Made by a program: the position numbers and the translations under genes. Shown here one piece after another: positions 5,874-10,543 of a stretch of 55,595 nucleotides of DNA. The notes beneath the pieces were generated by a model. That model saw nothing but the letters and a program-made list of their open reading frames with translations, made no database searches and was not told where the DNA came from. Position 1 is the stretch's first letter. Every line of letters starts with the position of its first letter. The stretch comes from Pseudanabaena cinerea FACHB-1277 (GTDB lineage: Bacteria > Cyanobacteriota > Cyanobacteriia > Pseudanabaenales > Pseudanabaenaceae), in NCBI RefSeq assembly GCF_014696345.1, contig NZ_JACJPY010000020.1, positions 1 to 55,595 on the forward strand. Reading direction: 5' to 3'.

Positions 5874-6746
5874 TTAGTTTGATTTCGGTAGCCAAGGATC
5901 GGCTAAATACACTTTTTTAGCCAAGCCAACTGTTTGCAGTAGTTTAATTATTGACCAAGTGGGATCAAGCTCCCACCACATCAAACCTGACCGCGCAGAC
6001 TTAGGAAAGGTATGGTGATTATTGTGCCAGCCCTCACCATAGGTAAGGATTGCTGCCCACCATAGATTAGTTGAATGATCGGGGGTTTCAGCAAAGTTTT
6101 TGTAACCCCATTTGTGACAGGCAGAGTTAATTAGCCAAGTACTATGCCACAAAATCACAGACCTAACAAACATTCCGTAGACCACAAAAGACCAACCCAA
6201 GCCTGAAAATAAGTTTTCACCAATGAAGTACATCAGTGCACCCAAGGGCAGTTGCAAGGATAGAAAATATTTATCTAAGAATGCGTAATATGGATCACTG
6301 GCAAGGTCGGGCGCAAATTTCTGATAATTTTCGCGTTGAAAATGTTCGGGGCGCGATCGAATAATCCACATGATGTGGCTAAACCAAAAACCACGATTAG
6401 CGGAGTAAGGATCTCTTTGATTGTCTTCGGTAAAACCGTGATGTTGGCGATGACCACCCACCCAAAACACTGGTCCACCCTGTACTGCCAAAGCGCCAAT
6501 AGTGGTCAAAATGTACTCAAGCCATTTAGGTACTTGAAAGCTACGATGGCTCAGTAAGCGATGATAAGTAAGACAAATGCCAATACTGCCAAACAACCAA
6601 TGCAGGAAAACTGTAAGCAATACAGCTTGCCATGAAAAATAAAAAGGGGCGAGTACGAGGGCAGCAATATGAAATGCACTGAAAAACGCAATGTTTACCC
6701 AGTTCAATTTCTGTTCAGCGATGGGGATTTGGATGTTGGCGGTCAT
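5874..6746 (-). CDS. desC: Membrane acyl-lipid/acyl-CoA desaturase (delta-9 type)
   Basis: An integral membrane di-iron enzyme that puts a double bond into fatty acyl chains, typically at carbon 9 of stearoyl lipids in cyanobacteria. All three histidine boxes are present: HRLLSH at residues 62-67, HRQHH at 99-103 and HNNHH at 241-245, with hydrophobic segments between them (about 15-57, 75-90, 155-200). The length (290) is normal for the DesC group. The gene is divergent from a TetR-type gene, and two copies of a palindrome lie in the shared promoter region, so repression by that protein is likely. The delta-9 assignment is from family similarity. Confidence 0.88.
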   Translation of the reverse strand: MTANIQIPIAEQKLNWVNIAFFSAFHIAALVLAPFYFSWQAVLLTVFLHWLFGSIGICLTYHRLLSHRSFQVPKWLEYILTTIGALAVQGGPVFWVGGHRQHHGFTEDNQRDPYSANRGFWFSHIMWIIRSRPEHFQRENYQKFAPDLASDPYYAFLDKYFLSLQLPLGALMYFIGENLFSGLGWSFVVYGMFVRSVILWHSTWLINSACHKWGYKNFAETPDHSTNLWWAAILTYGEGWHNNHHTFPKSARSGLMWWELDPTWSIIKLLQTVGLAKKVYLADPWLPKSN

Positions 6747-6787
6747 GAAATATTAAAAAATTTTGTGAGGTAAAGCAGCTATATGAT

Positions 6788-6853
6788 GCAAGTATCACTT
6801 ACAGTTGGCATAAGTCTAACCGCTTATTCATCAATAATGCAAGTATCACTTGC
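6788..6853. promoter_or_regulatory. Pair of palindromic operators between desC and the tetR-like gene
   Basis: GCAAGTATCACTTAC (6788-6802) and GCAAGTATCACTTGC (6839-6853) are near-identical; the second is a perfect 6-bp inverted repeat around a 3-base centre. Their centres are 51 bp apart, about five helical turns. One is about 40 bp from the desaturase start and the other about 25 bp from the TetR start, the expected placement for a local regulator of both genes. Binding by the neighbouring TetR protein is an inference. Confidence 0.65.
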
Positions 6854-6877
6854 AAAATATACCAATTAACATATCTG

Positions 6878-8146
6878 ATGGTACATACATCCGTGCCTGT
6901 GTCGCGCACCCCTACTCGTCAACGCATAGTCAATACAGCTTTGGAATTATTTGCTAGTCAGGGCATTACCGAAACAACCACTCGCCAAATTGCTGATTTT
7001 GCCAAGGTTAATGAGGTTACATTATTTCGACATTTTGGCAATAAACATGGGTTACTGTTAGCTGTACTGCAAGAATGTTTGCAAAAATATTTGGTGTTGG
7101 CACAAGTGGGAGAGTCTCTGATGGTGTCGGATATCTCTAGTCAGGGCGATTTGCGTCGCTTTCTTAAATATTATATCCAAAATTCATTAAGGGCGCTAGA
7201 GAGCGTGCCTGAGTTGGTGCGATCGCTGGTGGGTGAGGCTGGGCAGTATCCCCATGAAAGCCGTCAGGCGCTTGCCCAAGGTATTAACCAAGTTAATCAG
7301 ACGATCGCCAATGCTATTCACGAAGTATTAATCAAGTCGCGACTGCCATATCCTGTCCCTGCGATTAAAGTTGCTAATTTGCTGAATACCTGCATTTTGG
7401 GGTATGCCGTGATTACGCTGACGAGCGATGTACAGGCGGTCTGGAGCGATCGCGATGAATTTGTCAATACATTGGTTGATATGTTTGTGCAAGAGGTGAT
7501 GCCGATGGCACAGGCGCATCCGATTATGGATATTGGCGCTGATACTGTGCGTGAAATTATGTTACAAGCCAAAAAATTTAGTGTGCGCGACTATGCGATC
7601 GCTTATTTATTATTTGCATCGGGTTTAACGGCTAGAGATATTACAAAGCTGCGTCTCAGTGATTACCAACATCAGGGTAATCACGGTATCCTTTGTGTCA
7701 CTGGCAGTCATGGCAATAAGCGCTCAGTACCGCTTAACCAAAAAATATTAGGGCATCGCTATGGCTCCGCTAGCAACAATCCTCTTAGTGCTTATCTCAA
7801 GATGCGCCATAAAAATATTGGCACTACGAATATTTCCAATAATATTTCTAACAATCAGACAACCGACTTAATGTTTGGCGGCGACGATCGCAAACCCTTA
7901 GCCCTAGAAGAGATCGAGCAGCTATGGGAGCGCTGGACAATGCCCTACCGCAATGCTGACGGTACGCCCTTAAAAATTGATCAAGCAAGGCATACATGGT
8001 GTCTCGAAATGCTGTCGCGGGGGATGGACTTAGATAGCTTTGGCATTATCAGTGGTGTCCTCCCGCAGGAACTGGCAATCTATCAAGCGCGGCTTAATGA
8101 AAAAATTGCTATCAATCGGGCGATCGCCCTTGACGCAACCTGTTGA
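6878..8146 (+). CDS. TetR-family regulator fused to a tyrosine-recombinase-like domain
   Basis: Residues 12-58 are a TetR helix-turn-helix (TRQIADFAKVNEVTLFRHFG), followed by a helical ligand/dimer region to about 210. TetR proteins usually end there, but this one runs to 422. The extra half resembles the catalytic domain of tyrosine recombinases: GLTARDITKLRLSD (R253, box I), GNKRSVPL (K281, beta-hairpin Lys), QARHTW (R371, box II) and, 31 residues on, IYQARL (Y402, nucleophile position). The box II His is replaced by D368 and the usual GH by G393-V394. It may therefore be a DNA-binding module rather than an active recombinase. The gene is divergent from desC with palindromic operators between, so it probably controls membrane fluidity genes. 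Confidence 0.75.
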   Translation: MVHTSVPVSRTPTRQRIVNTALELFASQGITETTTRQIADFAKVNEVTLFRHFGNKHGLLLAVLQECLQKYLVLAQVGESLMVSDISSQGDLRRFLKYYIQNSLRALESVPELVRSLVGEAGQYPHESRQALAQGINQVNQTIANAIHEVLIKSRLPYPVPAIKVANLLNTCILGYAVITLTSDVQAVWSDRDEFVNTLVDMFVQEVMPMAQAHPIMDIGADTVREIMLQAKKFSVRDYAIAYLLFASGLTARDITKLRLSDYQHQGNHGILCVTGSHGNKRSVPLNQKILGHRYGSASNNPLSAYLKMRHKNIGTTNISNNISNNQTTDLMFGGDDRKPLALEEIEQLWERWTMPYRNADGTPLKIDQARHTWCLEMLSRGMDLDSFGIISGVLPQELAIYQARLNEKIAINRAIALDATC

Positions 8147-8341: not shown

Positions 8342-10543
8342 GTGAGAGTTCCCCTAGACTGTTATCGTATTCTCGGATTAACGCATCTGTCAGGGCTAGA
8401 CAAGATTCATCAAGCCCATCGCGATCGCCTGCTGTCAATGCCAAGGCGAGAATATTCTGATGCGGCGATCGCCTCACGCAAGCGCATTATCGACAAAGCT
8501 TACGAAACCCTCACCGATGCCAATCAAACCAGTAGTGATCCTGAACTTGCGGAAACTGGAAATACTCAAACAGCCACTGCCCCCCTGCCCCCACAAATCG
8601 AAGCCGATGAAAAAGACTTTGCAGGTTTGCTGCTGATCCTGTACGAGCTAGGAGAATCCGAAAAAGTTCTTAATATTGCCCGTCCCTACTACGATCCCGA
8701 AGAAGCCGAATATCAATCACCTCGCGTTTCGCCCCACGATCCTGACCTATTGCTATCAGTATCACTGTCCTATCTAGACCTTGGACGCGAATCTTGGAAG
8801 CAAGGTCAGTACGAAGCCGCCGCCGATGCCCTTGAGTCTGCCCAAGAAATTTTGCTGCGTGAAGGTTTATTTTTAAGCATTCGCAGTGAAATCCAGGCGG
8901 ATCTATTTCGTCTGCGCCCCTATCGCATCCTCGAACTGCTCTCTGCACCTGACAATCAGACCAATAACCACCGCAAGGGGTTATTGCTTTTGCAAGAGAT
9001 GTTAGATGCGCGGCGCGGTATTGACGGTTCTGGCAATGACTATTCGGGATTGGGGATTGATGATTTTCTGCGATTTATTCAACAGTTACGCAGTTATATG
9101 ACCACCCTAGAGCAGCAAACTCTTTTTGAAGAAGAGGCACGCCGCCCTTCCTCAGTAGCTACATATTTGGCAGTATATGCCCTCATTGCTAGGGGCTTTT
9201 CGCAGCGCCAGCCCGCCCTGATTCGCCGTGCCAAGGGCTTATTAGTCAAGCTAAGTGCTAGACAGGACATATATTTAGAAAAAGCCGTATGTGCCTTGCT
9301 GTTGGGACAAACTGAGGAGGCGAGCATTGCCATTGATAATAGCGCTGAGGATGATCAGGTGGCATTTATTCGTCAAAACTCTGAAGGCGCTCCCGATCTA
9401 TTGCCAGGGCTATGCCTCTATAGTGAGCGTTGGTTACAAGAAGAAGTATATCCCCATTTTCGCGACCTGATGAATCAGATCGTATCCCTTAAGGATTATT
9501 TTGCTGATGATCAGGTTCAGTCCTATTTAGAAGAGTTGCCCAACACTAGCGCGATATCTTCAGAATGGACTGCGCCTGTGGGTGGGGGCTTGGGTCTAGA
9601 TGAGGGGCGATCGCGTAGAGAGAATAGAGGCAATTTTGCCAGCGCATCGGGCAGTTTATCTGGTAACTCATCGGTTAATCTTAACGCTGAGACCAGCGCG
9701 GCCAATAGTTTAGATACAGCTAATGAGCAAAGACTAACAGATTACAGTCCTGAACCACCAACCCGTTTCCAGAGGTCAAATGCGCCTCTAATAAGTCGCT
9801 CTAGTGCTGCGAATAACAATGGCAGAGGTGAATTGCCGCGATCGCCGCGTACAGGTCATGTACCACCGCCACGCTCTAAAAATATCAATGAAGCAGTACG
9901 CGAGATTAAACGCCCTAGTCCCAATCATGCGCCTTCAGTTCCCACCGCTCCCAAACGTAAGTTTAATACTGGGCGATTAGCCATTGTCATTGCCATAGCG
10001 ATCGCCCTGATCGGCGGCACATTTACCTTAGTGGTTTGGGCGATTAACAGCCTGATGAGTCCAACCCGCAGCAGAACCTTTGTGCCACTGGAAAAACCAA
10101 TCACCACCTTAGCCCAGTCTAGCCAAGCACCACAAGCAGCAGCGATCGCCCAATCTGGCCCACTCAATAAGGAAACAGCCACAAGATTAATCGAAACATG
10201 GCAAGCAACTAAGTCAAAGGCCCTTGGCAATACCTATGAAGAAAACATTCTCGAAGAAATTTTGACAGAGCCTGCGCTCAGCGATTGGAGAAGTCGTGCG
10301 AAGGAGCTGAAAGCCAGTAATTCTTATCTGCAATACCAAACTAAATCCACCAGAGTTGATCAAGTAATTGCCGATGGCGAAACCAAAGCCAAGGTCATTG
10401 CCAAAATCTCTGAGTCGCGCAATTTCTTTAGTAACGGTGAGTTGGATAGTGGTGCATCTAAGGCTGATGCCAATTACACCGTTGAATATGATCTAGTCCG
10501 CAAGGACAATAAATGGCTAATTAGAGAAATGCTGGTATTTTGA
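8342..10543 (+). CDS. zipN: Cell division protein ZipN/Ftn2 (ARC6 homologue)
   Basis: A membrane-anchored division protein that tethers FtsZ and recruits other divisome parts in cyanobacteria; plants keep it as ARC6. Residues ~5-62 form a DnaJ-like region (CYRILGL, AHRDRLL, AYETLTD) without the HPD motif, as in ARC6. A long helical, TPR-like region follows, then a low-complexity Ser/Asn/Pro-rich linker (about 400-540), one transmembrane segment at about 545-568, and a C-terminal IMS/DUF4101 domain from about 607 (ETATRLIETWQATKSKALG to KWLIREMLVF). The start is GTG, chosen because it directly precedes the conserved domain. Length and order match the family. Confidence 0.92.
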   Translation: MRVPLDCYRILGLTHLSGLDKIHQAHRDRLLSMPRREYSDAAIASRKRIIDKAYETLTDANQTSSDPELAETGNTQTATAPLPPQIEADEKDFAGLLLILYELGESEKVLNIARPYYDPEEAEYQSPRVSPHDPDLLLSVSLSYLDLGRESWKQGQYEAAADALESAQEILLREGLFLSIRSEIQADLFRLRPYRILELLSAPDNQTNNHRKGLLLLQEMLDARRGIDGSGNDYSGLGIDDFLRFIQQLRSYMTTLEQQTLFEEEARRPSSVATYLAVYALIARGFSQRQPALIRRAKGLLVKLSARQDIYLEKAVCALLLGQTEEASIAIDNSAEDDQVAFIRQNSEGAPDLLPGLCLYSERWLQEEVYPHFRDLMNQIVSLKDYFADDQVQSYLEELPNTSAISSEWTAPVGGGLGLDEGRSRRENRGNFASASGSLSGNSSVNLNAETSAANSLDTANEQRLTDYSPEPPTRFQRSNAPLISRSSAANNNGRGELPRSPRTGHVPPPRSKNINEAVREIKRPSPNHAPSVPTAPKRKFNTGRLAIVIAIAIALIGGTFTLVVWAINSLMSPTRSRTFVPLEKPITTLAQSSQAPQAAAIAQSGPLNKETATRLIETWQATKSKALGNTYEENILEEILTEPALSDWRSRAKELKASNSYLQYQTKSTRVDQVIADGETKAKVIAKISESRNFFSNGELDSGASKADANYTVEYDLVRKDNKWLIREMLVF

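Follow-up and report, generated by a model that had tools for sequence, protein, structure and literature searches.

The gene at positions 6878 to 8146 of the window (the whole 55,595-nucleotide stretch of Pseudanabaena cinerea FACHB-1277 DNA that was analyzed) encodes a TetR regulator which is joined, within a single frame, to the catalytic fold of a tyrosine recombinase. It is likely that this protein functions as a local repressor of the divergently transcribed fatty acid desaturase gene, desC, and probably of its own gene also, and that its C-terminal domain (C-domain) represents an exapted recombinase which lacks a working active site. The features on which this proposal is based are listed in Table 1.

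Table 1. Genes, protein domains, and predicted regulatory elements of the tetR-desC locus
Feature	Position in window	Strand	Detail or basis
TetR/dead tyrosine-recombinase fusion gene	6878..8146	+	422 aa; relatives with one frame spanning both domains
TetR DNA-binding domain, residues 17-63	6926..7066	+	Pfam TetR_N, E 3.2e-13
TetR ligand/dimerization domain, residues 71-207	7088..7498	+	Helical in AlphaFold2 model
C-terminal tyrosine-recombinase-fold domain, residues 218-420, catalytic residues degraded	7529..8137	+	Pfam, HMMER, structure model
Family-specific conserved segment, residues 284-311	7727..7810	+	Consensus around segment RQVPVNQWILGKRYGSYTNNPLTKWLKSRK; partly a gap in XerA
Tyr402, sole catalytic residue kept in most members	8081..8083	+	98/103 rows
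desC-like gene for a fatty acid desaturase, divergent; predicted target	5874..6746	-	Pfam FA_desaturase, E 4.1e-18
Predicted operator 1, desC-proximal	6786..6804	.	ATGCAAGTATCACTTACAG
Predicted operator 2, tetR-proximal	6837..6855	.	ATGCAAGTATCACTTGCAA
Predicted desC -35 hexamer, TTGCAT, within operator 2	6837..6842	-	Sequence pattern
Predicted desC -10 hexamer, TAGACT, 18 nt from -35	6813..6818	-	Sequence pattern

Domain structure of the fusion protein

A preliminary description of this DNA, made from the sequence alone, had proposed the fusion of a TetR regulator to a recombinase-like domain, and this architecture was borne out. The open reading frame is intact and its coordinates were confirmed, residues 1 to 207 corresponding to the TetR regulator and residues 218 to 420 to the recombinase catalytic fold. 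Both Pfam matches exceed their cut-offs, with scores of 49.7 bits (cut-off, 24) for TetR_N at residues 17 to 63 and of 35.7 bits (cut-off, 27.1; E 9.7e-9) for Phage_integrase at residues 221 to 386. When E values of up to 1 were admitted, TetR_N was matched by all 62 aligned sequences and Phage_integrase by 56 of them, and almost no variation was apparent among the 62 in the TetR recognition region. For the ligand/dimerization domain, Foldseek matches to TetR proteins were obtained, FadR among them.

AlphaFold2 modeling yielded a pLDDT of 85.5 for the full-length protein (62-row alignment) and of 92.5 for the C-domain alone (48 rows). Comparison of the latter using VIA-align returned Z scores of 19.8 for XerA, 17.8 for XerH, 15.0 for lambda Int, 14.6 for Cre, and 13.2 for XerD, in addition to 12.7 for the phi3T protein SroF (9rgl) and 11.4 for YopR (8bpz). 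The idea of a recombinase fold was, therefore, upheld by structure prediction, and the XerA score rules out a chance resemblance. No Pfam match to a core-binding domain was obtained in the fusion protein, nor among the matches listed for its relatives (25 of 36 families, 62 sequences); the N-terminal position which this domain holds in recombinases is occupied in the fusion by the TetR domain.

In the genome from which the window derives, the fusion occurs once, alongside three further strong matches to Phage_integrase. The same genome also encodes a 520-aa frame (G000:C151:17471-18892; L144 and L148) in which Phage_integrase is matched twice in tandem (E 2.6e-24 and 8.9e-6); the weaker match is apparently degenerate, and the frame represents a duplicated tyrosine recombinase domain.

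Loss of the recombinase active site

The register of the catalytic positions was set by HMMER alignments to XerD and XerA, based on six XerD residues which we take to be catalytic. The box-I Arg of XerD (GLR) pairs with T251 in the motif GLT, two residues before R253, while the XerD hairpin GKGNKER pairs with GSHGNKR in such a manner that its first Lys lies opposite S277 and not K281. The box-II motif HxxR pairs with DQAR (D368 and R371), and Y402 is positioned near the nucleophile, allowing for a small indel. R253, K281, R371, and Y402, which the preliminary description had named as four key catalytic positions, are indeed the residues present; R371 and, with its small indel, Y402 hold such positions, but R253 and K281 align off the catalytic sites and were rejected as catalytic residues. 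The two positions which had been described as lost, namely, the box-II His (Asp in D368) and the GH motif (GV, at position 394), were correctly identified.

Conservation was assessed across 103 aligned rows, representing the window and 102 distinct relatives (108 relatives, with identical sequences merged). Arg was observed at position 251 in one row, Lys at position 277 in one row (a weak count, given that this loop is gappy), and Arg at position 371 in 24 rows, including most of the window's group; His was observed in no row at either position 368 or position 394, the latter being Trp in 32 rows, and the Lys hairpin is shortened in most rows. Position 253 is Arg in 8 rows and position 281 is Lys in 4. 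The Arg and Lys positions thus vary freely, a finding which refutes the catalytic part of the original idea, whereas Tyr402 is conserved, with Tyr in 98 rows, Phe in 4, and His in 1. With Trp394 counted, none of the catalytic residues is kept in 4 rows, one in 47, two in 48, and three in 3, and the maximum of four was reached in a single row (L029: Arg251, Arg371, Trp394, and Tyr402). No row possesses all six residues of the R-K-H-R-H/W-Y set of an active tyrosine recombinase, and, as judged from these alignments, the C-domain seems to be a tyrosine recombinase whose active site no longer works.

The preliminary description had also raised the idea of a regulator able to cut and rejoin its own operator. 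That the domain remains active, cutting or inverting DNA at the operator pair described below, is extremely improbable. The widespread retention of Tyr402, the presence of R371 in the majority of the window's group, and the four residues kept in L029 may be cited in its favor; however, the near or complete absence of the box-I Arg and His368, the shortened Lys hairpin, and the replacement of Tyr by Phe or His in five rows all argue against it, as does the presence, in two genomes encoding a TetR without the C-domain, of a separate recombinase with a catalytic set that is intact by eye. Furthermore, the -10 element located between the two operators faces desC in 80 of 80 regions, and so no inverted state was seen. 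Active recombination was consequently rejected, principally on the catalytic counts.

Selective maintenance of the C-domain

Within the family-specific segment (residues 284 to 311), the mean share of the most frequent residue is 0.84, compared with 0.36 to 0.72 at the five catalytic positions other than Tyr, and the last helix of the domain (residues 396 to 421) keeps R405, E408, K409, A411, A415, L418, and D419. For the window's group (20 sequences), the estimate of omega was about 0 in the helix-turn-helix (HTH; 67 pairs), 0.03 in the ligand domain, and 0.10 in the C-domain (68 pairs for each of the latter two), and purifying selection acts on the C-domain. The conserved segment and the low omega together indicate that the domain is maintained, seemingly for a purpose other than recombination.

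It is proposed that the C-domain probably serves as an accessory module for DNA binding, oligomerization, or the binding of a partner. DNA binding by both halves, the two-headed mode suggested in the preliminary description, would be one form that such a module might take. The domain is weakly basic, with a median net charge of +1, which does not strongly support DNA binding. This near-neutral charge, coupled with the conservation of a family-specific segment that contains no catalytic motif, would suit a domain that has lost DNA contact altogether and either senses something or binds a partner protein. Nothing that was computed points to such a partner or ligand, however, and this narrower role is regarded as possible, though not the probable one.

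Conserved linkage to desC and predicted operators

The neighboring desaturase gene, which is presumed to be desC-like based on its size and His boxes, is adjacent to and divergent from the regulator gene in all 79 loci on named contigs (80 relatives, the best of 95, were kept, representing 79 distinct loci) across Pseudanabaena, Nostocales, Leptolyngbya, Xenococcus, and other lineages, and is likewise divergent and adjacent in 35 further loci. This linkage, in combination with the conserved predicted operators at the desC promoter, is consistent with the role in regulating membrane desaturation that the preliminary description had suggested. Within the 5-kb flanks, phoU and an ARC6-like gene recur solely in the window's group (L031 to L049), and a GNAT gene recurs in that group with three weak matches elsewhere (30 to 31% identity). 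The gene 3′ of the fusion (positions 8342 to 10543, plus strand) encodes an ARC6-type division protein (ARC6 E 1.3e-53; ARC6-like_IMS), being linked to the fusion in 17 of the 79 loci, all of which belong to the window's group, L031 to L049.

Two 19-bp palindromes conforming to ATGCAAGT-N3-ACTT(A/G)CAT, with a score threshold of at least 13 of 16, are present in all 80 intergenic regions (the window and 79 loci); in a shuffled control, one site scoring at least 13 of 16 occurred in 1 of 1600 regions. The two best sites are separated by 46 to 48 bp in 58 regions and by 51 to 53 bp in 20 (the window and its group), with outlying spacings of 43 bp and 58 bp occurring once each. Exceptions among 24 further fused loci are L173, with a single good site, and L116, in which 85 bp separate the two sites. 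Across all loci, the spacing ranges from 42 to 60 bp (85 in L116), with no fixed helical phase.

Exact matches to TGCAAGTNNNACTTRCA occur twice in the genome from which the window derives, both at the 6786 to 6855 locus. When two mismatches were allowed, 68 matches were obtained compared with 35 for the reversed pattern, palindromic sites being counted on both strands, and weaker extra sites may be present. Of 116 sampled genomes of the class, 53 contain an exact operator match (1 of 116 for the reversed-pattern control), and 51 of these 53 carry the TetR homologue; this homologue was found in 16 of the 63 genomes without an exact match, that of G443 being merely a more distant TetR. The position of sites or matches relative to tetR was compared by eye in this survey and in that with profile A2 described below. 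G418 carries one exact site within a coding region and a weaker pair in the intergenic region. The two genomes with an exact site and no TetR homologue are G008, in which no desC is present in the 3.3-kb locus (L184; G008:C71:27004-27020), and G114 (G114:C1:1518170-1518186); either site may be due to chance.

Departures from the usual gene order were also observed. In G393 and G409, tetR and desC are codirectional, and the operator pair (48 bp) is located between the 3′ end of tetR and desC, with its -10 element pointing in the desC direction. In G444, one contig carries the usual arrangement of desC, operator pair (47 bp), and tetR, and a different contig has a further exact site, followed by TANNNT at 17 nt, which is located upstream of a second desC gene; no tetR accompanies this gene within the 3.5-kb locus. 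The placement of the pair in G393 and G409 and the additional site in G444 argue for desC as the conserved target. In Gloeothece citriformis PCC 7424, plasmid pP742403 (L179) carries tetR with its own desaturase gene, divergent and adjacent, together with the operator pair, the encoded regulator being annotated merely as TetR/AcrR. This plasmid, which is 29 kb and typed as mobilizable, harbors the module near orange-carotenoid-protein-like and light-harvesting-like genes.

Predicted desC promoter and proposed mode of action

On the desC strand, all 80 regions have a TANNNT element after the operator 2 half-site TTGCAN, at a distance of 17 nt in 59 regions and 18 nt in 21, where shuffled spacers would be expected to yield 12.3 such regions; the -10 element was spotted by eye before counting, and distances of 16 to 19 nt were scanned. 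Operator 1 lies, as a rule, within a few bases after this -10 element. In a second set of 35 loci, which is not fully independent because some species were already represented in the first 80 (L118 and L089, for example), the element was located at 16 to 18 nt in 34 (23 of 24 fused loci and all 11 loci in which the domain is absent or possibly absent), L116 being the locus that lacks it. Of 27 desC-proximal sites, 3 are accompanied by such an element. G534 (L152) lies at a contig end and may still encode the C-domain, G456 (L163) appears broken, and G422 (L132) is interrupted by a stop within the matched stretch. Excluded from the second set were L160 (a short locus without desC) and L162, in which no desC is present and the TetR is a different one that groups with the outgroup. 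Repeated loci (L111, L112, L139, L140, and L153) and partial or second matches (L156, L158, L159, L164, and L165) were likewise omitted.

The arrangement of a -35 hexamer in operator 2, a -10 hexamer, and then operator 1 implies that the pair brackets the predicted desC core promoter. With regard to the regulator gene itself, a putative tetR -10 element upstream of operator 1 was found outside the window's group in 38 of 60 regions (16.1 expected), which is suggestive only, and within that group in 7 of 20 (4.8 expected).

We infer that the TetR half, as a dimer, would bind the two 19-bp palindromes around the desC promoter. Operator 2 would cover the -35 hexamer and operator 1 would lie just downstream of the -10 hexamer, over the expected start site, and RNA polymerase would thereby be blocked. 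The protein is probably released when a lipid-derived ligand occupies the TetR pocket, which would create a feedback switch on the first desaturation step. Activation of desC by the protein, as opposed to repression, is an improbable alternative: the predicted -35 hexamer, TTGCAT, differs from the consensus hexamer and is overlapped by one operator, which may be cited in its favor, but a layout in which operators cover the -35 and the expected start region is typical of repression.

TetR proteins without the C-domain and origin of the fusion

TetR proteins without the C-domain are encoded beside desC in G011, with two sites at 47 bp, in G533, a member of the window's family, with one site, and in six genomes of one genus of family f26, again with one site; in G448, also of family f26, such a protein is accompanied by two sites at 49 bp. 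As these regulators keep desC and one or two predicted operators, the C-domain is dispensable for the core arrangement, and the site pairs of G011 and G448 indicate that the operator pair is independent of it.

These pairs bear on the notion that the C-domain bridges two operator-bound TetR dimers in a recombinase-style assembly without chemistry, thus closing off the desC promoter in a repression complex. It is established that recombinases assemble on pairs of sites, and two operators are present in 80 of 80 fused loci of the first set and, counting the odd spacing of L116, in 23 of the 24 further ones; the conserved residues of the last helix may also be cited in its favor. However, a spacing of 42 to 60 bp (85 in L116) that is not helically phased, and a promoter geometry which alone explains this spacing, argue against this notion, and the occurrence of the pair with domain-less proteins weakens bridging as the reason for its existence. 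We consider it unlikely. It is similarly doubtful that a chemistry-free recombinase assembly locks two dimers around the desC promoter so as to produce a sharper or all-or-none switch of membrane unsaturation, with the domain-less lineages operating a simpler, in some cases single-operator, version. The preferred reading remains that of a TetR repressor of desC to which the C-domain probably contributes an accessory function.

In a tree built from 46 N-terminal domains, the TetR proteins without the C-domain do not form one group. One of them, L154, is nested among fused relatives of the window's family (support, 97/94), albeit on a long branch, and at least one loss of the C-domain is therefore likely. 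Two of the three groups without the domain (L154 and family f26) are situated on long branches, of 1.18 and 1.34 changes per column, as if the TetR half had evolved faster without the C-domain; the third group does not show this.

Two proposals concerning the source of the domain were rejected. No phage relative was found in a scan of IMG/VR using two peptide patterns or in a tblastn search of 50,697 phage records, which excludes an origin traceable to these phages. Profile A2 had matches in 80 of 145 genomes, of which 76 fell within one fusion-sized frame each and the remaining four, all from family f26, were weak (E 1.6e-7 to 2.1e-6), the two of these that were examined being ordinary recombinases; a C-domain that circulates alone was discounted on this basis.

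Significance and comparison with known systems

The first desaturation step, performed by DesC, helps to set cyanobacterial membrane fluidity. Knowledge of how fatty acid biosynthesis is transcriptionally regulated in cyanobacteria has been called scarce, and these organisms are reported to lack, as it appears, beta-oxidation (PMC6123915). The present analysis provides a specific candidate desC regulator, with two exact predicted operators and a predicted promoter, which is testable in many culturable strains and for which the natural domain-less versions represent ready-made controls. It also adds an instance, from bacteria and mostly on chromosomes, of a transcription factor in which a dead tyrosine recombinase has been retained. 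No description of a TetR-recombinase fusion or of a TetR-desC regulator was encountered among the matches listed from one open-access library, and the architecture may well be represented in automatic domain databases.

DesT of Pseudomonas is a TetR regulator of acyl-CoA desaturase genes. The fusion resembles it in the location of a TetR gene beside a desaturase gene and in the palindromic operator at the promoter of the latter, which is predicted in the case of the fusion, but DesT is without the recombinase domain. XerA, XerH, and XerD share the catalytic-domain fold (Z scores of 19.8, 17.8, and 13.2, respectively), from which the fusion differs in having no core-binding domain, a lost active site, and an extra conserved segment.

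MrpR (YopR), the master repressor of phage SPbeta, is described as possessing a recombinase fold, with no recombination shown and a retained Tyr which seems to matter for DNA binding (PMC10516654). It is similar to the C-domain in its fold without recombinase function, its retained Tyr, and its loss of the box-I Arg and His, and differs in being a stand-alone phage protein with a core-binding domain, a kept Lys, and no TetR half (PMC10516654); the relation between the two is a structural match only (YopR 8bpz, Z 11.4). In animals, the DUF3504 proteins, such as KCTD1 and ZMYM, are domesticated Crypton tyrosine recombinases (PMC3212892). Like the fusion, they are transcription regulators with a dead recombinase domain, and further DNA-binding domains are present in many of them; their Tyr is lost, whereas the fusion keeps Tyr402, and TetR partners are not mentioned in the passages used here (PMC3212892). 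By analogy, MrpR may be regarded as a precedent for the exaptation of a recombinase fold, and the DUF3504 proteins as a precedent for its joining to other regulators.
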